Positions 4,829 through 63,449 of a stretch of 64,000 nt of DNA are shown here, one piece after another (positions within the stretch are counted from its first letter, which is position 1; every line of letters begins with the position of its first letter). The stretch is taken from contig JAUTXP010000052.1 of the NCBI GenBank assembly GCA_030837965.1, positions 33,625 to 97,624 on the forward strand, in the 5' to 3' direction. The notes below the pieces were generated by a model that had not been told where the DNA came from, ran no database searches, and worked only from the letters and a program-made list of their open reading frames with translations. This stretch comes from Acidimicrobiaceae bacterium (GTDB lineage Bacteria > Actinomycetota > Acidimicrobiia > Acidimicrobiales > JAUTXP01). The translations under genes and the position numbers were made by a program.

Positions 4829-7444
4829 TCAGCGGGCCAGCTTGACCACGTGGGCCGCACCGACATGGCGGTACCGCTCGGGCAGGCAGGTCAGCACCAC
4901 GACCTGCGCATCCTGGGCGGCCATGGACAGCACCGCCCCCAACTTCTCCAGTCGCTTGCTGTCCGACCAGCCCAGCGCGTCGTCCAGGATTACCGGCACG
5001 CCCCCATCCGGGGCCACGATGGCCGCGCAGGCCAGCCTGCTGATCACGCAGAGCTGCTCGCGGGCACCGGTGCTGAGCTGGTCGAACTCGACAGTGACGC
5101 CCCGCAGCGTGCGGCTGGCGATGCGGAGGTCCTCGCCCAGCTCCACGGTGAAGTCGTCGCCGAACACGACCCGGCCGAAGGCCTCGACCTTGGCTTTCAA
5201 CGGAGCCATGTAGGCCCGCCGGGCCTGGCCCCGGCACCGCTCCAACGTCTCGTACAGCCGTCGGGCCGCGGCCGCCCGCCGCTCGGCGGCCCGCCGTTGC
5301 CTGCTCCGGTGCTCCAAGTCGGCCTCGGCCTCGCCCAGCCGGTCGTGCAGGCCTTCCTGCCCCCACAGGGAGAGTCGCTCGCGCACTCGCACCTGTTCTT
5401 CGGCCGTTCCTCGTCGCTCGGCTTCGAGCTTGTCGAACACGGCGGTGGCGTTTTCGAGCGCGCCCTTCAACTCTTCGGGGCGGGCCTTGTCGGCGGCGGC
5501 GTCGGCGTGGGCCAACGCCGCGTCCGCCTTGGCCACCGCCTTCGCGGTGGCGTCCACCCGGCCCGCCAGCACGCCGTCGGGCACTCGCGCCCGCGCCGAC
5601 TCCAAGTCGTGCCGGGCCGACTCCACCTGTCGATGGGCCAACTCCACCTCACGCTCAGCGGCGTCGAACCTGGCCCTTGCCCGCTGCTCGTCACGTCGGC
5701 GCAGCTCGACCTCGTGATGGGCCTCCCGAAGCAGCTCCAAGGCCGCGCCCGCACCGGCTTCTGCCTCTTCGACCAGCCCTCGCGCCGTATCGAAGTCCAA
5801 GGGCGGGCGGGGATCCTCGGCGAGGCGCGCCCGCAGCCGCTCGACCTTGCCCGCCAACCTGTCCGGCGTCAGGTCCCGCAGGTCGGCCGCCATCCGGGTG
5901 GTGAGGCCCTCGCGCTCGAAGGCCGCCTCTCGCCGGGCCGCGGCCGCCGTCTTGGCCTCGCCTACATCGGCCACGCCTGCGGCCGTGCACAGGTCGGCCA
6001 ACCGTCGCTCCGACGCCGCCAACGAGGCGACCAACTGCCCGGCTTCACCCCTCCCCCTGACGGCGATCCGCGCCACCCCGCCCAACTCCATGGCCGACGA
6101 CGGGCCCATGGCCACCGTCGTACTGCCCCCGGCGGGCAAGGCCTCGACCCCGTCGCCCACCCGGATCTCCAATGGCCGCAGCGCCTCCACCTCGACCAGC
6201 GGGCTCTCGCCTTCCAATCGGACTCGGCCCTGCACGACGGCCAAGTGGGCGTCCTCGATGTCCTCCAACACTTCCGGGCCGACACGGTTGTCCTCCAGCA
6301 GCGTGTCGAGCGCCTCCAACGCGGCTTCGGCCTTGCGCACCCGATCCAGCCGTTCGGTCATCTGGGCCAAGTCCAGGCTGTCGCGTGCGAACGTGAAGTC
6401 GGCCTGGGCAGCAGCCAGCCCCGCTTTCGCGGCCTCACCTCGCTCGCTGGCCTCGGCCAGCCGCTCTTCAGCCGCCTGCACCGCGGACACGGCCGACTCC
6501 AACCCAGGACGATGCCGATCCCGCTCCCGCCCGAGCTCCCGGTGCCTGCCCTGGGCCCGATCCAGCGCCTCCACCAAGGCCTGCCGCCGGCTCTGCTCGT
6601 CACACGCGGCCCGATGGTCGGCCGCGGCCAGGTCGGCGGCCAGCTTGGCCTCGGTGACGTCTCGCAAGAGCGCATCGACCGACGCCCACTTCCGCCGGTA
6701 CTCATCCACGCGCCGACCCTGTGCCTCGAGCTCCTCGGCCAAGCCGCCCATATGCCTAGCCAGGTCGGCTGCGTACTCCACGTCGTCTTCCAACTCGGCC
6801 AGGCGACGGCGCAGTTCCTCGACCCTGTTCGCCGCGTCTTGCTCGGCCCGCTGCAGGTCGGCGATCTCGGCTTTGAGCTTGCGCCCCGGCGTGTGGAACC
6901 GGTCGAGCTCGGCCCGGGCCAAGTCGATGAGGGTGGCCTCGCGGTCACCGGCCAAGGTGCCGGCCGATGCGGTGTCGAGTGCGGCGGCCAACGACGTCTG
7001 TTCTGACAGGTCGGCCTGGTCGGGCCGGACGCCCTGCTGGAGGCGCAGGGCCCGCCAAAGGGGAAGGTCGACGGCCTCGTGGAGGATGGCCAACGCCCGC
7101 TCGTGGGCTTCTCGCCCGGTGTGGTTCTCGGGCCGTGGCGCGTGCACGACCAAGGTGGTGGACCGTTCCCGATGGAACCGCTTCGAGTAGGTGAAGCGAT
7201 ATGCCCCCGCCTCGATGTCGACCTCGATCTCGCTTCCCGCGTCCTTGTGCACGGGCTTGACCGCCTTGACCGCCTTGTTCGTGCTGGTATCGAGGTAGTC
7301 GAACAGCAGGTCGAGGGCCTCGGCCAGGCTGGTCTTGCCCACCTCGTTGTCGCCCTCCACCACGGTGACGCCGGTGGCCGGCAGGCGCACCTCGTGCGCC
7401 TCGATGCCGCGGTAGTTGCGCAGCCGGATGCGGGTGATCCTCAT
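4829..7444 (-). CDS. SMC/SbcC-like (YhaN-type) AAA ATPase, DNA-end processing partner
   Basis: 871 residues. The N-terminus MRITRIRLRNYRGIEAHEV leads to Walker A GDNEVGKTSL (31-40). Long Ala/Glu/Arg-rich coiled coils flank a central beta-rich insertion (around LRPLEIRVGDGVEALPAGG). The C-terminus carries the ABC signature LSTGAREQ and Walker B VPVILDDALGW. There is no CxxC zinc hook at the coil apex, unlike classical SbcC/Rad50, so it fits the YhaN-type or mycobacterial Rv1278-type proteins. The start overlaps the stop of the metallophosphoesterase gene (ATGA), and the pair presumably forms a nuclease complex that acts on DNA ends. The promoter sits upstream of the partner gene. Exact substrates are not predictable from sequence. 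Confidence 0.88.
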   Translation of the reverse strand: MRITRIRLRNYRGIEAHEVRLPATGVTVVEGDNEVGKTSLAEALDLLFDYLDTSTNKAVKAVKPVHKDAGSEIEVDIEAGAYRFTYSKRFHRERSTTLVVHAPRPENHTGREAHERALAILHEAVDLPLWRALRLQQGVRPDQADLSEQTSLAAALDTASAGTLAGDREATLIDLARAELDRFHTPGRKLKAEIADLQRAEQDAANRVEELRRRLAELEDDVEYAADLARHMGGLAEELEAQGRRVDEYRRKWASVDALLRDVTEAKLAADLAAADHRAACDEQSRRQALVEALDRAQGRHRELGRERDRHRPGLESAVSAVQAAEERLAEASERGEAAKAGLAAAQADFTFARDSLDLAQMTERLDRVRKAEAALEALDTLLEDNRVGPEVLEDIEDAHLAVVQGRVRLEGESPLVEVEALRPLEIRVGDGVEALPAGGSTTVAMGPSSAMELGGVARIAVRGRGEAGQLVASLAASERRLADLCTAAGVADVGEAKTAAAARREAAFEREGLTTRMAADLRDLTPDRLAGKVERLRARLAEDPRPPLDFDTARGLVEEAEAGAGAALELLREAHHEVELRRRDEQRARARFDAAEREVELAHRQVESARHDLESARARVPDGVLAGRVDATAKAVAKADAALAHADAAADKARPEELKGALENATAVFDKLEAERRGTAEEQVRVRERLSLWGQEGLHDRLGEAEADLEHRSRQRRAAERRAAAARRLYETLERCRGQARRAYMAPLKAKVEAFGRVVFGDDFTVELGEDLRIASRTLRGVTVEFDQLSTGAREQLCVISRLACAAIVAPDGGVPVILDDALGWSDSKRLEKLGAVLSMAAQDAQVVVLTCLPERYRHVGAAHVVKLAR

Positions 7445-8562
7445 GCCGCCCCCCTCGCCAGCCGGTACAACAGCGACAGGGCGTCGCGCGCCTCTTCGTC
7501 CCCGGCGCGGCCCGCGGTCTCCAACTCGGCCAACGCCTCATGGGCGAAGCCGGCCAGGCCCAGCTCAGACAGGTCGGCCTCGTCGGGCAGAACCACGACA
7601 CCGCCTGCGGGCTCCCACACGTCGAGCGCTCCAAATAAGGGACGGGCCTGGTCCAGAACCGCGTCGAGCCGTACCCGCTCGGCCAGGCTGACGCCGCCCG
7701 CCAGATCGAGCCGGACCACGGTGTCGGCCTTGTCCGGTCGACCGGCGAGCCAGGCGGCCAGGGCGTGGATGTCCTCGGGCCCGTCGACCGAGAAGGGCTG
7801 GCGCACGAACCGCCATCGCCCGATGTGGTGGGACGTGACAACGGGTGCGCCCGTGTCCGCTGCGTCGATCTCGACGACGAGGGCATTGCCGGGGTCAAGC
7901 TCGTCGAAGTCGGTGGCCTCCGGCGCGCCCGAGTACCAGATGCGCCCTGTCTTGCCGACGGACGTGGTGGAGTGGCGGTCGCCCAAGGCCACGTAGTGGA
8001 CGGCGGCCCGCTCGAGCGCGTCGACGGAGATGAGGGCGGGGTTGTCCCGATCGGGCGAGAGCGAATCGACCGCCCCATGGCCGACCGCGATGCGGACGGT
8101 TCCTGGAGATGGCGGACCGAGGTCGCTCACCGCGGCACCGAGCAGGTCGTGCAAAGGCCGTTTCGACGTCCATGGGGCGGCGACGAGCTCCACGCCAGGC
8201 CTGACCTGGTGCACGCCCGCGCCGCGCAGGATGGACACGTTGGGGGGTGGGTGTTCGAAGGCGGGTGAGGAGTAGATGGAGCCTGCATCGAGCGGGTCGT
8301 GATTGCCAGGCAGAAGGAAGATGGGCACAGGCACGTCGGCCAGGGCCTCGACGGCGCGGCCCACGACTTGGCGGTCGAGTTGGTTGGCCTCGAACACGTC
8401 CCCGCACACGACGATGAACTCGCAGTCGTGGGCTTGGGCCAGCCGTCCAAGGGCGCGCACCGCCTCGATCCGGGCCTGGGAGAAGCGGGCCTGCGCCTCC
8501 GGTGTGAGGAAGCGCCTGCTCATCCCCAGTTGGAGATCGGCGGTATGGACGAATCTGACCAC
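7441..8562 (-). CDS. Metallophosphoesterase, SbcD/YhaO-like nuclease subunit
   Basis: From GTG at 8562 the protein is 373 residues. It has calcineurin-like motifs VRFVHTADLQLG, VVCGDVFEAN, LPGNHDP and VALGDRHSTT. The first block reads D-L-Q where SbcD has D-W-H; as I recall, the same Gln occurs in the mycobacterial Rv1277 group, so it may be a subfamily trait rather than damage. The track start at 8592 (TTG) falls inside the promoter. The GTG at 8562 begins 7 nt after the -10 TACCGT, so the mRNA would be leaderless. The gene is coupled to the SMC-like ATPase by a 4-nt overlap and lies divergent to pafB. Confidence 0.87.
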   Translation of the reverse strand: MVRFVHTADLQLGMSRRFLTPEAQARFSQARIEAVRALGRLAQAHDCEFIVVCGDVFEANQLDRQVVGRAVEALADVPVPIFLLPGNHDPLDAGSIYSSPAFEHPPPNVSILRGAGVHQVRPGVELVAAPWTSKRPLHDLLGAAVSDLGPPSPGTVRIAVGHGAVDSLSPDRDNPALISVDALERAAVHYVALGDRHSTTSVGKTGRIWYSGAPEATDFDELDPGNALVVEIDAADTGAPVVTSHHIGRWRFVRQPFSVDGPEDIHALAAWLAGRPDKADTVVRLDLAGGVSLAERVRLDAVLDQARPLFGALDVWEPAGGVVVLPDEADLSELGLAGFAHEALAELETAGRAGDEEARDALSLLYRLARGAA

Positions 8563-8651: not shown

Positions 8652-9593
8652 GTGGCCGATCGCCTGGCCCGGCTCACCAACTTGGTCGCCCTGCTGCTCA
8701 ACGCCCCTCGGCCGTTGACGCTCGATGAGGTCGCGTCCGAGTTGGAGCCTGAGTCCGGTTATCCGGCCGGTGACGAGGCTCGGCGGCAGGCGTTCGAACG
8801 GGACAAGCGGGTGTTGCGGGAGGAGGGCATACCCGTCGAGGCCGTGTTCCTCGAGGGCGAGGGGGGCAAGGTCGGCTACCGCATCCCGCCCGACGACTAC
8901 TACCTGCCCGATCTGGCCTTGACCGACGACGAACGGGTCGCGCTGCATCTGGCGCTGGCGGCTGTGCCGTTGGACTCGGGGTGGGGCGCGGAGGCCAGGT
9001 GGAAGCTGGGTGACGTGTCGGGCGCGGACGCCTCGCCCCTCGCCGCACTGCCGTCGGTCGAGGCCCTGCCGCTGCTCTTCGAGGGCTGGCGCCGGCGGGC
9101 ACCGGTCGAGTTCGGGTACGGCGGGTCGCCCCGGCTGGTCGAGCCGTACGGCCTGTTGTTCAGGGAGGGGTTCTGGTATGTCGTGGGGCGGGACCGCGGC
9201 CGTGGGGACTTGCGGCGGTTCCGGGCCGATCGCATCGAGGGCCGGGTCACGCTGGGGGAGGCGGGCTCGTTCGAGCGGCCGGAGGGGTTCGACCCAGCGG
9301 CTGCGTTGGCCAGTCAGCCGTTCATGATCGGAGAGGGCTCGTCGGAGCGGGTGCTGGTCCTGGTCGACGCGGTGCTGGCCGACAAGGTGGAAGGCGAGTT
9401 GGGACCGGCATCCGTCGCCGAACGGCGAGACGACGGCTCCGTGGTCGTGGATGTGGAGGTGACCAACCGGGTCGGACTGCGGTCGTGGGTGTTGGGGATG
9501 CGCGACCACGCCCTCGTCTTGTCGCCGCCTTCCGTGCGCGATGACGTGGTGGAGTGGCTGCGGGCCATGGCCGGCGCGGGCGCGGGCGAGTGA
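8652..9593 (+). CDS. pafB: WYL-domain transcriptional regulator PafB
   Basis: 313 residues from GTG 8652, which has GGAGG 6 nt upstream; the track start at 8619 is too early. An N-terminal helical HTH (RLARLTNLVALLLNAPRPLT) is followed by FERDKRVLREEGIPVEAVFL and GYRIPPDDYYLPDLALTDDE, all characteristic of PafB. A WYL fold follows (PVEFGYGG, VEPYGLLFREGFWYVVGRDR). PafB and PafC act as a pair that activates LexA-independent DNA-damage genes in mycobacteria. Here they overlap by 4 nt (GTGA) and sit divergent to a nuclease operon rather than beside Pup-proteasome genes, as seen in many relatives. Confidence 0.85.
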   Translation: MADRLARLTNLVALLLNAPRPLTLDEVASELEPESGYPAGDEARRQAFERDKRVLREEGIPVEAVFLEGEGGKVGYRIPPDDYYLPDLALTDDERVALHLALAAVPLDSGWGAEARWKLGDVSGADASPLAALPSVEALPLLFEGWRRRAPVEFGYGGSPRLVEPYGLLFREGFWYVVGRDRGRGDLRRFRADRIEGRVTLGEAGSFERPEGFDPAAALASQPFMIGEGSSERVLVLVDAVLADKVEGELGPASVAERRDDGSVVVDVEVTNRVGLRSWVLGMRDHALVLSPPSVRDDVVEWLRAMAGAGAGE

Positions 9594-10717
9594 GCCCTCG
9601 GGCCAATCCGGGTGAGCGGCTCCGCAGGCTGTTGGCTGTCATTCCGTGGCTGGCAGCTCGGGGCACGGCGTCGTTGGAGGAGATCGCCGAGCGGTTCGGG
9701 GTGGACGTGGCCACTGTGGAGGACGAGCTGTTGTTGGCGGCCTGCTGCGGGCTCCCGCCGTATTCGCCGGACCAGCTCATCGAGTTGGTGGTGGACGACG
9801 ACGGTGTGACGGCCAACGTGCCCGACTATTTCCGGCGGCCGCTGAAGCTCACCGCCGCGGACGGGTTTGCCATCCTGGCCGCGGGCCGGGCCTTGTTGGC
9901 GGTGCCCGGCTCCGACCCGACGGGGCCGCTGGCCACCGCGCTCGACAAGTTGGCCGGCGTCTTGGGCGGGCCTCGGGGGGTGACGGTCGAGTTGGACGCG
10001 CCTGCCCGGTTGCACGACTTGCGGGACGCGGTGGCGGCGTCGGAGCGCGTGGCCGTGGAGTACTACTCGGCATCGCGGGACGAGGTGACGAGCCGGGAGA
10101 TCGACCCGCTGTCGGTCTTCGCCGACCGGGGGCGGTGGTATGTGGCCGCGTACTGCCATCGGGCACAGGACGTGCTGACGTTCCGGGTGGACCGGGTGCG
10201 GTCGCTGCGGCGGACGGGGGAGACCTTCGATGCGGTCCGGGTGGGCGAGGCGCGCCGGTCGGGTGCGGGCGGGGGAGGCGGCGGCGGAGGCGGGGGATTG
10301 CACATCGCCTCGCTGGGCCCGGACCTGCAACATGTGACCTTGCTGCTTCCGGCCGAGGCCCGGTGGGTGGCGGAGGCGTACCCGACGACGTCGGTTGAGG
10401 ATCTGGGCGATGGTCGGCTCCGCGTCCGATTGGCCGTGACTGGCCTGCCTTGGCTGGAGCGGCTGCTCCTGCGGGTCGGGCCTGAGGTAAGGGTGGAGGA
10501 GCCTCCCGAGTTGGTTGCCGTCGGGCGCGAGGTGGCCCGGCGGCTGTTGGGCCGCTATCTGGCGGACGAGGCAGTTGGTGCTGCCGCTGCGGGCGGTGGT
10601 GCTGGCGACGGCGGCGGCGGGGCTGACGGTGGGGGCGGGGGCGGCTCAGCCGGCGAGTCGGGCGTGTCCGAGCCTGGTCGAGCGGACGCCGCGTCCACCA
10701 AAGGCAGCACGCGGTAG
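9590..10717 (+). CDS. pafC: WYL-domain transcriptional regulator PafC, with low-complexity tail
   Basis: 375 residues from GTG 9590, whose bases overlap the pafB stop. The HTH region ERLRRLLAVIPWLAARG, the PafC-type block CGLPPYSPDQLIELV and the WYL segment VAVEYYSASRDEVTSREIDP with GRWYVAAYCH are all present. A seven-Gly run (GGGGGGG) occurs near residue 225. The last 55 residues are a Gly/Ala-rich tail that overlaps, antisense, the tail of the convergent Lrp gene by 163 bp. The function is inferred from homologues: heterodimeric activation of the DNA-damage response, probably through ligand sensing by the WYL domain. Confidence 0.83.
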   Translation: MSPRANPGERLRRLLAVIPWLAARGTASLEEIAERFGVDVATVEDELLLAACCGLPPYSPDQLIELVVDDDGVTANVPDYFRRPLKLTAADGFAILAAGRALLAVPGSDPTGPLATALDKLAGVLGGPRGVTVELDAPARLHDLRDAVAASERVAVEYYSASRDEVTSREIDPLSVFADRGRWYVAAYCHRAQDVLTFRVDRVRSLRRTGETFDAVRVGEARRSGAGGGGGGGGGGLHIASLGPDLQHVTLLLPAEARWVAEAYPTTSVEDLGDGRLRVRLAVTGLPWLERLLLRVGPEVRVEEPPELVAVGREVARRLLGRYLADEAVGAAAAGGGAGDGGGGADGGGGGGSAGESGVSEPGRADAASTKGSTR

Positions 10718-34137: not shown

Positions 34138-34443
34138 GTGCCTCCGGGTGCCGACGCCTGGACGCTGGGGTCGCTGGTCATCGTGCGCCGCCGTTCGGCG
34201 GACGACGAGCGCTTGTTGGCGCACGAGGCGGTGCACGTCGGGCAGTGGCGGTCCCTGGGTGTGGGGCTGTTTCTTTGGCGATACGTGGGCGCCTACCTGC
34301 GCTGGCGGCTGGCCGGGTACCCGCATGTGGGCGCGTACCGGCGCATCCCCTTGGAGGTCGAGGCCACCTGGTCGGCCCGCAATCCGACCGTTGCCGGCGG
34401 CCGGGCCGACAATCCGGGGGTTGTTGTTACACCCCCTCGGTAA
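34138..34443 (+). CDS. Small HExxH protein (DUF4157-like mini-protease fragment)
   Basis: 101 residues as tracked. It contains RLLAHEAVHVGQWRSLGVGL, i.e. HEAVH, a zincin-type HExxH motif, in the short context of DUF4157-like proteins. The coding frame stays open upstream to the stop of the thioredoxin gene (LARPYRLWVGGPVP), so the true start may be earlier, perhaps overlapping that gene. No signal peptide is seen. Whether it is a peptidase is uncertain, because the third metal ligand is not obvious. Its last codons form part of the PafBC-like promoter of comEA. Confidence 0.6.
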   Translation: MPPGADAWTLGSLVIVRRRSADDERLLAHEAVHVGQWRSLGVGLFLWRYVGAYLRWRLAGYPHVGAYRRIPLEVEATWSARNPTVAGGRADNPGVVVTPPR

Positions 34444-34446
34444 CGT
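34424..34446 (+). promoter_or_regulatory. PafBC/RecA-NDp-like promoter upstream of comEA
   Basis: TTGTTACAC-N8 (CCCCTCGG)-TAACGT. It is identical to the site at 8570-8592 apart from one base in the -10 (TAACGT against TACCGT). The predicted transcription start is near 34453, giving a leader of about 50 nt to the comEA GTG at 34503, which has an AGGGGG ribosome site. The 5' half of the site is within the last codons of the HExxH ORF. Confidence 0.6.
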
Positions 34447-34502
34447 TCGCCCTGCCACTTCCCCCTGGTCGTCGGACGTCGTCATCGTCCAGGGGGTCTT
34501 CC

Positions 34503-35252
34503 GTGCCCGAAAACCAATCTGTTCTCGCCGCGCCCGTGGGCGCGCCATCTGTCCGTGAGCGGCTGACCGCGGTGGCCGACGCGCTCGGCACCACGCCGGG
34601 GCGTGTGGTCGCAGGGATGGCCGTGGCCGTGGTGCTGGCCGTGGCCTCGGGGTGGACGTTGCTGGCCTCGCCTGCGTCGGTGGCTTCCGTGGGCGCGGGC
34701 GGTGGCGATTCCGGAGGTGCGGGCGCGGGCGATGGGGCCTTGCCCCGTGCCGTGCCTTCTGCGCCCTCGTTAACAGATGCCGCTGAGGCGGCATCGGGCG
34801 GGCCCGCGTACGTCTACGTCACCGGCGCGGTGGCCCAGCCGGGCGTGTACCGGGCCCCGCCCGATGCCCGGGTGGCCGACGTGCTCGATGCCGCGGGCGG
34901 GCCCGCGCCCGACGCCGACCTGGTGCAACTGAACCTGGCCGCGCCGGTCAGCGACGGCGAGCGTGTGTACGTCCCGCGCAGGGGCGAGCCTCCACCTGCG
35001 GGGGTGCCATCGGGCGTAGCCGCGGGTGCCGGCCTTGTCGGCGGGGCCGTCCCGGCTGGGCTGCCCGTCAACCTGAACACGGCCACGGCCGAACAGCTCG
35101 ACGCCCTGCCCGGCGTGGGCCCGTCGACGGCGCGCGCCATCTTGGCCTGGCGCCAGCAGCACGGCCGCTTCAAACGGGTCGACGACCTGTTGCACGTCCG
35201 CGGCATCGGGCCAGCCAAGCTCGAGGCCCTGCGCACCGAGGTGCGGGTGTGA
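34503..35252 (+). CDS. comEA: ComEA-like DNA-binding competence protein
   Basis: 249 residues from GTG 34503, with AGGGGG about 6 nt upstream. One transmembrane helix (VVAGMAVAVVLAVASGWTLL) anchors it. An SLBB domain follows (YVYVTGAVAQPGVYRAPPDA) and then a C-terminal helix-hairpin-helix pair (PVNLNTATAEQLDALPGVGP; RVDDLLHVRGIGPAKLEALR). It captures double-stranded DNA outside the membrane and hands it to ComEC. It is the first gene of comEA-comEC-folP2-holA and has the PafBC-like promoter upstream, so DNA uptake may be induced by DNA damage. Confidence 0.92.
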   Translation: MPENQSVLAAPVGAPSVRERLTAVADALGTTPGRVVAGMAVAVVLAVASGWTLLASPASVASVGAGGGDSGGAGAGDGALPRAVPSAPSLTDAAEAASGGPAYVYVTGAVAQPGVYRAPPDARVADVLDAAGGPAPDADLVQLNLAAPVSDGERVYVPRRGEPPPAGVPSGVAAGAGLVGGAVPAGLPVNLNTATAEQLDALPGVGPSTARAILAWRQQHGRFKRVDDLLHVRGIGPAKLEALRTEVRV

Positions 35253-35306: not shown

Positions 35307-35350
35307 CTGGAGGACATAGGCCCGCGTTTTGCGGGGGCTATGTCCTCCAG
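35307..35350. repeat. Dispersed palindromic element, copy 2 (between comEA and comEC)
   Basis: CTGGAGGACATAG and its reverse complement CTATGTCCTCCAG enclose GCCCGC-GTTTT-GCGGGGG, which extends the stem. It ends 5 nt before the comEC ribosome site, so the hairpin could affect comEC expression. Confidence 0.85.
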
Positions 35351-35367: not shown

Positions 35368-36729
35368 GTGACCGACCGGTGGACCGTCGTGCTGGCCCTG
35401 GCCGCGGCCACCGGTGCGTTCGCGGCCCGGCCCGTGGCGTTGGCCCTGCTGGTCCCGGTGGCCGTCGCCGCGTTGGGTTGGCGCGTGCCCGCGCTGGTCT
35501 GTGTGGCCGTGGGACTGGCGGCGTCGATCCTTGCCGCCCGGGCCTGGGCGGGCCTCGACCAGCCCTCGCTGACAACGTGGTCGGGGACCGCGGTCCTCGT
35601 CAACGACCCGGCCCGCCAGCATGGCGCACTCCGGTTCGAGGCCCGCGTGGGCGGCCGCCGGGTCGAGGCCTGGGCCCGGGGCGAGCCGGGCTGGCGGCTG
35701 GCGCCGCGGTTGGCGGGCGAGCGGGTGGAGCTGGCAGGCCGCCTTCGCCCTGTCACCGGCCGCAGCCGCGCCTATCTGGCTCATCGCCACATCGCGGCCC
35801 GGCTCGACGTGCAGTCCGTCGGCCGGACCACTCCCGCGCCCTTGCCGCTGCGAGCGGCCAACGCGGTGCGCCGCCTGATCCTGCACAGTGCCCGTACCCT
35901 GCCCGACCAGACCCGGGCCCTGTTCGCGGGGTTCGTGCTGGGCGATCAGCGGTTCGAGTCCGACCAGACCCGTCAGGACTTCCGCCACTCCGGCCTGAGC
36001 CATCTCCTGGTGGTGTCGGGCGAGAACGTGGCCTTCGTCTTGGCCTTGGCTCAACCGGCCTTGCGCAGGCTGCGGCTCGGCCCCCGGTTCCTGGTCGCCC
36101 TCGGCATCCTCGGGTTCTTCGGCCTGCTGACCAGAGGCGAGCCGTCCGTCCTGCGGGCCGAGGCCATGGCCGCCATCGCCGTGCTCGCCGCCACCTTGGG
36201 CAGACCGGTGTCCACCCAGCGGCTGCTGTGCCTGGCCGTCACCGGGCTGGTCTTGGTCGACCCCATGCTGGTCGGGTCCGTGGGGTTCTTGCTGTCGGTC
36301 GCGGCCACCGCGGGCATTGCCTGGCTGACGCCTCCGCTGCAACGTCGGCTGCCCCTTCCGGTCGCCGTGGCCGTGGCCGCCCAACTGGGCGTCACCCCCG
36401 TGCTGATCCCCGTCTTCGGCGGCCTGCCCGCGGCCTCGCTGCCCGCCAACCTCCTGGCCCTGCCCGCTGCGGGCCCGGTGATGATGTGGGGCCTGGCCGC
36501 CGGGCTTCCCGCAGGCCTGCTCCCTGCGCCCATCGCCGCCGTGCTCCACCTGCCCACCCTCGTGCTGGTGGACTGGGTGGCATTCGTGGCCCGTCGCGCC
36601 GGCAACGGTCCGCTGGGCAGACTCATGATCGGCGGACCCGCGCTGGCCGGACTGTTGGCGGGTGTCGCCGTGACGCGCGTGGGGCGGCGGATAGCGTCCA
36701 AGCGTGCGGCTCGCGCTCGGTCCCCTTAG
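35368..36729 (+). CDS. comEC: ComEC-like DNA channel without metallo-beta-lactamase domain
   Basis: 453 residues from GTG 35368, with GGAGG 8 nt upstream. An N-terminal helix pair and an OB-like DUF4131 region (ARVGGRRVEAWARGEPGWRL) precede the Competence domain with LFAGFVLGDQRFESDQTRQD and GLSHLLVVSGENVAFVLALA. The family usually has 700-800 residues and ends in a periplasmic nuclease-like domain; this one stops after the transmembrane domain. The channel would translocate single-stranded DNA, while strand degradation would need another protein. The stop overlaps the folP2-like gene. Confidence 0.88.
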   Translation: MTDRWTVVLALAAATGAFAARPVALALLVPVAVAALGWRVPALVCVAVGLAASILAARAWAGLDQPSLTTWSGTAVLVNDPARQHGALRFEARVGGRRVEAWARGEPGWRLAPRLAGERVELAGRLRPVTGRSRAYLAHRHIAARLDVQSVGRTTPAPLPLRAANAVRRLILHSARTLPDQTRALFAGFVLGDQRFESDQTRQDFRHSGLSHLLVVSGENVAFVLALAQPALRRLRLGPRFLVALGILGFFGLLTRGEPSVLRAEAMAAIAVLAATLGRPVSTQRLLCLAVTGLVLVDPMLVGSVGFLLSVAATAGIAWLTPPLQRRLPLPVAVAVAAQLGVTPVLIPVFGGLPAASLPANLLALPAAGPVMMWGLAAGLPAGLLPAPIAAVLHLPTLVLVDWVAFVARRAGNGPLGRLMIGGPALAGLLAGVAVTRVGRRIASKRAARARSP

Positions 36730-37534
36730 TCACGACATCACCACGCGCGCCCTTGTCATGGGCATCCTCAACCGCACGCCCGACTCGTTCTACGACCGCG
36801 GCGCCTATTGGGACTTCGACGCCTTCCTGCGCCAGGCCGACGCCCTGGTGGAGGAGGGGGCCGACCTGCTCGACGTGGGCGGGGTCAAGGCCGGTCCTGG
36901 TCCCGAGGTGTCCGAGGCCGAGGAGTTGGAACGGGTCGTGCCCGCCATAGAGGCGCTGCACGCGCGCTTCGACGTCCCGCTGTCAGTGGATACGTGGCGG
37001 GCCTCGGTGGCCAAGGCGTGCTTCGACGCGGGCGCGGTGGTCGGCAACGACATAAGCGGGTTCGCCGATCCCGAGTACCTCACGGTCGCGGCCCAGGCCG
37101 GCGCAACAGTGGTCGCCACCCACATACGGCTCGCTCCTCGGGTCCCTGACCCCGAGCCGCACTATGACGACCTGGTCGGGGCCGTGTGCGCGTTCCTGGT
37201 CGAGCGCGCCCGCGGGGCCGAGCAGGCCGGGCTTCGGCCCGACCAGATCGTGCTCGACGCCGGGCTCGATCTGGGCAAGACGGCCGCGCAGTCGCTGGTG
37301 CTGCTGCGCGAGTCGGCTCGCTTCGCCGCGCTCGGCTATCCGCTGCTCCTGTCCGCGTCCAACAAGCGCTTCTTGGGCGAGGTGCTCGGGCTCGAGATCG
37401 GGGACCGGCGAGAGGCGTCCTTGGCCGCGGCCGCGTTGGGCGTTGCCCGCGGGTGCAGCATCGTGCGGGCCCACGACGTCAAGGGGACCAGACGGGCGTG
37501 CGCAGTGGTGTCGGCCATCTTGGAGGCGATGTGA
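36704..37534 (+). CDS. folP2: Dihydropteroate synthase-like protein, FolP2 type
   Basis: 276 residues, TIM barrel. It has MGILNRTPDSFYDRGAYWDF, LLDVGGVKAGPGPEVSEAEE and SVDTWRASVA, then LSASNKRFLGEVLG and RAHDV. The loop 2 sequence GGVKAGPG replaces the Ser-Thr-Arg-Pro-Gly of true dihydropteroate synthases and, as I recall, matches the mycobacterial FolP2 (Rv1207) paralogue, which is not thought to make dihydropteroate. The function is therefore unsure. It overlaps comEC by 26 bp and holA by 4 nt (GTGA), an unusual insertion between competence and replication genes. Confidence 0.82.
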   Translation: MRLALGPLSHDITTRALVMGILNRTPDSFYDRGAYWDFDAFLRQADALVEEGADLLDVGGVKAGPGPEVSEAEELERVVPAIEALHARFDVPLSVDTWRASVAKACFDAGAVVGNDISGFADPEYLTVAAQAGATVVATHIRLAPRVPDPEPHYDDLVGAVCAFLVERARGAEQAGLRPDQIVLDAGLDLGKTAAQSLVLLRESARFAALGYPLLLSASNKRFLGEVLGLEIGDRREASLAAAALGVARGCSIVRAHDVKGTRRACAVVSAILEAM

Positions 37535-63406: not shown

Positions 63407-63449
63407 CTGGAGGACATAGGTACCCGTGAGGTGTGCCTATGTCCTCCAG
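63407..63449. repeat. Dispersed palindromic element, copy 3 (between hemW and LysM gene)
   Basis: CTGGAGGACATAGG and CCTATGTCCTCCAG form a perfect 14-bp stem around 15 variable nt. On the minus strand, the TAG stop of the convergent LysM gene lies inside the right arm. It could end transcription from both sides. Confidence 0.85.

Follow-up and report, generated by a model that had tools for sequence, protein, structure and literature searches.

A PafBC-type promoter before comEA and probable damage-induced competence in an Acidimicrobiaceae bacterium

We propose that a PafBC-dependent sigma-A promoter probably places comEA-comEC of this Acidimicrobiaceae bacterium in a DNA-damage regulon together with comM-dprA, comF, recA, radA, uvrB and sbcCD, giving damage-induced DNA uptake alongside repair. 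The link to competence comes from three transcription units, of which comEA-comEC is one. Our analysis of the window (the whole stretch of 64,000 nt) and of its source genome yielded the site before comEA, the geometry of the promoter, the genes of the regulator, the content of the regulon and the conservation of sites before comM and comF in relatives.

A shared site before comEA and sbcD

The features of the window that bear on this proposal are as follows.

34138 to 34443, plus strand: 101-aa open reading frame upstream of comEA (match: eCIS_core-like), whose stop codon and final codons fall within the site
34424 to 34446, plus strand: predicted PafBC-type promoter of comEA, with the -26 element TTGTTACAC (34424-34432), an 8-nt spacer and the -10 element TAACGT (34441-34446)
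34503 to 35252, plus strand: comEA, GTG start, HHH_3 and SLBB domains, TIGR00426
35368 to 36729, plus strand: comEC, Competence domain, 453 aa
8570 to 8592, minus strand: second copy of the site, predicted leaderless promoter of sbcD, ending 7 nt before the GTG of the sbcD-like gene
7441 to 8562, minus strand: sbcD-like nuclease gene, SbcD-type phosphoesterase
4829 to 7444, minus strand: sbcC-like gene (SMC-like ATPase), next after sbcD
8652 to 9593, plus strand: pafB, WYL and WCX domains
9554 to 10717, plus strand: pafC, HTH_PafC (93 bits), WYL and WCX domains; the coordinates are those of the longest open frame, and the true start is possibly further in

The final base of TTGTTACACCCCCTCGGTAACGT (34424-34446, plus strand) lies 56 nt ahead of the GTG of comEA. 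Compared with TTGTTACACCCCCTCGGTACCGT (8592-8570, minus strand), it has 22 of 23 bases identical with one mismatch and an identical spacer, confirming the near-identical 23-nt site that the preliminary description had placed before comEA, and each copy is oriented toward its own downstream gene, comEA or sbcD. The claim that a chance match is unlikely also stands, with 0 matches expected from 100 dinucleotide shuffles of the window and no third match elsewhere within the 64,000 nt when up to 3 mismatches were allowed. We considered whether two such similar sites arose by copying or from a mobile element and ruled this out: the C-tract after TTGTTACAC is common to the sites of the source genome and the spacer shared by the two copies is mostly the consensus of those sites, so that no copying event is needed.

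To judge the assignment to PafBC, we compared the site with the published motif of Mycobacterium tuberculosis, in which TGTCGG, TGTCAG or TGTCAC is followed by 10 nt and then TA-3N-T (PMC8151990). The comEA site reads TGTTAC, 10 nt, TA-ACG-T, which is the published geometry with a single letter changed (C to T) from the TGTCAC variant, although its -26 letters differ from the mycobacterial TGTCGG or TGTCAG. PafB and PafC are both encoded in the window, on the other side of the sbcD copy, and their closest solved relatives among the PDB matches are PafBC chains from the structures 7p5x, 9fnd and 6sj9. The TGTC-type -26 geometry of a PafBC promoter (RecA-NDp), the two regulator genes and a genome-wide list of sites before DNA-repair genes thus occur together, bearing out the earlier assignment to PafBC, and from these sequence features we regard the comEA promoter as almost certainly PafBC-type. 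The SOS regulator LexA binds a palindromic box of the GAAC-N4-GTTC type; the comEA site is not palindromic, and no LexA-type box was seen by eye at 34400-34502.

The regulator itself carries a change in the part that would read the -26 element. In our alignment, the recognition helix of the window PafB is RRQAFERDK, compared with FSRMFERDK in the M. smegmatis chain, and a Q in the window protein takes the place of one of the two arginines said to be strictly conserved (PMC6789036). This substitution may match the altered -26 element. A short-pattern search of the collected loci for the changed helix in other PafB proteins found the window's own PafB only.

Regulon content and conservation in relatives

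Across the source genome, TTGTTACAC-N8-TANNNT with at most 1 mismatch occurs at 26 sites, compared with 0 for the reversed control, and TTGTYACACC occurs at 23 sites compared with 0. Some of the 26 sites are possibly false, as certain one-mismatch sites lie before a transposase gene or over antisense frames. The downstream genes mostly begin 6-9 nt from the site, as in leaderless promoters. The repair-type targets are recA, radA and uvrB (identified by their sequence), sbcD, an lhr-like helicase, an AddB-like nuclease, two other PD-(D/E)XK nucleases and an SNase-like protein. Three competence units, comEA-comEC, comM-dprA and comF, are also among the targets; comM was recognized as TIGR00368 and dprA, directly behind it, as TIGR00732 (200 bits), while comF has a TIGR00201 match below the cut-off and a PRTase domain, and the -10 element of its site is CATGCT. 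Finding three competence units among 26 sites has a P of about 1e-6 to 1e-4 depending on the assumed unit numbers, a rough figure because the classes of repair genes and competence genes are not independent of each other. With sites before both uptake and processing genes, the regulon has the composition expected of a DNA-damage-induced competence system.

The named relatives of comEA place the source genome in the class Acidimicrobiia. Conservation of the comEA site in relatives, which the preliminary description had named as a check, mostly failed, and the refuting outcome that it had set, relatives without the site, largely holds for this one gene. Among 157 comEA loci (some from other classes, and one locus counted twice), a site within 1 mismatch is present in 4 genomes (the source genome, G078, G256 and G006); apart from the source genome, these are two family f8 species and a single case with 1 mismatch. 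The 85 kb of DNA upstream of comEA at these 157 loci contain 0 antisense matches. As to whether the comEA sites arose once, the comEA tree does not group the source genome with family f8, with weak support.

Because most relatives lack the comEA site, we examined comM and comF instead and found sites before both. A site lies within 500 nt of comM in 25 of 53 Acidimicrobiales genomes compared with 1 antisense match, most often 70-125 nt ahead of where the match begins, and a comF site was found in 17 of 47 Acidimicrobiales genomes compared with 0 antisense matches, mostly in leaderless position. In other classes of the phylum, the mycobacterial motif from the literature precedes comM in 8 of 65 genomes (3 of the 65 being other members of the class) compared with 0, mostly as TGTCGGTG. 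The occurrence of TGTYACAC before comM in one class and of the mycobacterial form in another gives good grounds to think that a single regulator reads the two forms. The earlier suggestion that one regulator governs competence and the SMC-like nuclease gains support from the further sites before comM-dprA and comF, which many relatives share. Genome G158 has the site upstream of comEC instead of comEA, and its comF and Flp-pilus gene cpaB are preceded by sites as well. A divergent SSB gene is preceded by sites in many families.

Two side observations concern further PafBC-type sites. The comM gene of G158 (L193 / L339) is preceded by at least 3 exact and one near-exact PafBC-type tandem sites, about 84 nt apart. 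A small protein with a CDxC...C cysteine pattern, about 66-84 aa in length, has a PafBC-type site in several families (L044:2970-3167, L093, L094 and L306) and, in the source genome, a site whose -10 element is CATGCT; it had no match in Pfam or NCBIfam, and it is possibly a new damage-response protein.

Proposed mechanism and its alternatives

In mycobacteria, single-stranded DNA activates PafBC, which inserts itself between domain 4 of sigma A and the promoter and makes contact with the -26 element (PMC11804915). For the steps of activation by single-stranded DNA and recruitment at the -26 element, our scheme borrows from the mycobacterial papers, and by analogy with them DNA damage or stalled replication would produce single-stranded DNA, which would bind the WYL domains of PafBC and render it active. 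PafB would read the -26 element TTGTTACAC, and active PafBC would recruit RNA polymerase to the promoters of the regulon, upon which the cell would raise uptake (ComEA, ComEC, ComF) and processing (DprA, ComM, RadA, RecA) alongside repair. We infer that this mechanism operates in the source organism and leads to transformation. A wider idea, which we offer tentatively and think less likely to hold than to fail, is that natural competence in Acidimicrobiales forms one arm of the damage response under PafBC, with the imported strand feeding back on the regulator: since single-stranded DNA activates PafBC, the strand brought in by ComEC could keep it active, giving positive feedback from uptake to the competence and recombination genes.

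The main rival to damage-induced uptake accepts induction through PafBC but assigns it to repair: ComM, DprA, ComF and RadA would work in fork restart or recombination repair, and ComEA-ComEC would do no more than scavenge nucleotides. The comM, dprA, comF and radA genes do have repair roles as well, the remainder of the regulon is repair, and of the competence targets it is comM-dprA and comF, not comEA, that are widely conserved. However, the import genes comEA or comEC carry sites in the source genome, in family f8 and in G158, the last with sites before the pilus gene cpaB too, and such targets in two or more families argue against a pure repair function, which we consider rather unlikely. 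The remaining doubts concern the site rather than its purpose. The comEA copy could be a non-functional look-alike, with only the conserved -10 box and the leader being important, as most relatives keep these two without the -26 element; yet the match is perfect, lines up exactly with the conserved -10 box, and recurs in family f8, while the comEA upstream DNA is free of antisense matches, making this reading improbable. A reader other than PafBC, be it another activator or an alternative sigma factor, would fit the -26 letters unlike the mycobacterial motif, given that reading by PafBC is deduced here from sequence, but it has to contend with the spacing, the content of the regulon, the pafBC genes beside one site and the two forms of the comM site in two classes, and we give it very little credence.

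Damage-induced uptake under PafBC, the reading that we prefer, has partial precedents. The mycobacterial PafBC/RecA-NDp regulon (PMC8151990, PMC8223512, PMC11804915) has the same regulator pair, promoter spacing, -10 box and repair targets (recA and uvr genes), whereas the -26 element here is TGTYACAC and the targets here include comEA-comEC, comM-dprA and comF. In the stress-induced competence of Streptococcus pneumoniae (PMC8394987), genotoxic stress likewise turns on DNA uptake and recombination genes, and a separate competence signal is in principle not needed; that system differs in working through the comCDE peptide circuit in a species that lacks SOS, while here a transcription factor activated by single-stranded DNA would act directly on the promoters. 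Micrococcus luteus shares the actinobacterial comEA-comEC uptake genes and their regulated transcription, but its competence depends on density and nutrients, with an upstream regulator stated to be unidentified (PMC12849477, PMC6667448). For Actinomycetota, the competence-inducing signal is stated to be poorly understood and the regulator is described as unknown (PMC12849477).

PafBC and its promoter type are already known, as is damage-induced competence in other phyla through other circuits. We found no description of direct PafBC control of competence genes in open-access text, and the supplementary tables of the mycobacterial regulon may already list comM or dprA. A direct link from a regulator activated by single-stranded DNA to uptake and processing genes would name a regulator, give it a 23-nt site and offer a signal that can be tested. 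If true, it would widen the PafBC regulon beyond repair to include gene acquisition and bear on whether transformation evolved for DNA repair.

The comEA leader and nearby elements

Between the -10 element and the start of comEA, a CTTCCCC box pairs with a G-rich stretch before the start codon.

34458 to 34496, plus strand: comEA leader, with the box CTTCCCCC (34458-34465); CCCCCTGG (34461-34468) pairs with CCAGGGGG (34489-34496), 6 nt before the start codon

The box follows TANNNT at 54 of the 157 comEA loci compared with 2 antisense. The 40 distinct leaders have a mean folding z-score of -2.07, and pairing of the box falls within 18 nt of the start in 33 of them compared with 13.3 expected from shuffles, a contrast that is flattered by the shuffles moving the ribosome-binding stretch. 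A search of Rfam returned no known RNA family in the comEA leader. Similar leaders precede CpaB-like and TadZ/CpaE-like genes of the source genome (the CpaB-like call was made by eye, and Pfam gave no match) and the SSB gene of relatives; the leader loci are L049, L198, L210, L211, L078 and L187. By itself, TANNNT-N6..18-CTTCCCC is not enriched in the source genome (9 matches compared with 15 in the controls), and the 9 matches include comEA and the CpaB-like and TadZ/CpaE-like genes. The pairing suggests translational control of comEA besides its promoter, whichever activator acts there, and the conserved leader is possibly an RNA switch of competence genes in Acidimicrobiia.

Downstream, at 35368-37534 of the window, ComEC is only 453 aa long and the 3' end of its gene overlaps a dihydropteroate synthase gene (Pterin_bind, 36704-37534); the search behind the Competence domain of ComEC turned up no metallo-beta-lactamase part. 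A dispersed palindrome, GGAGGACATAG-N14/15-CTATGTCCTCC, with conserved arms and a variable centre, lies between comEA and comEC (35309-35348) and again at 63409-63447; with about 46 copies in the genome compared with 0 in the control, it is REP-like or terminator-like.
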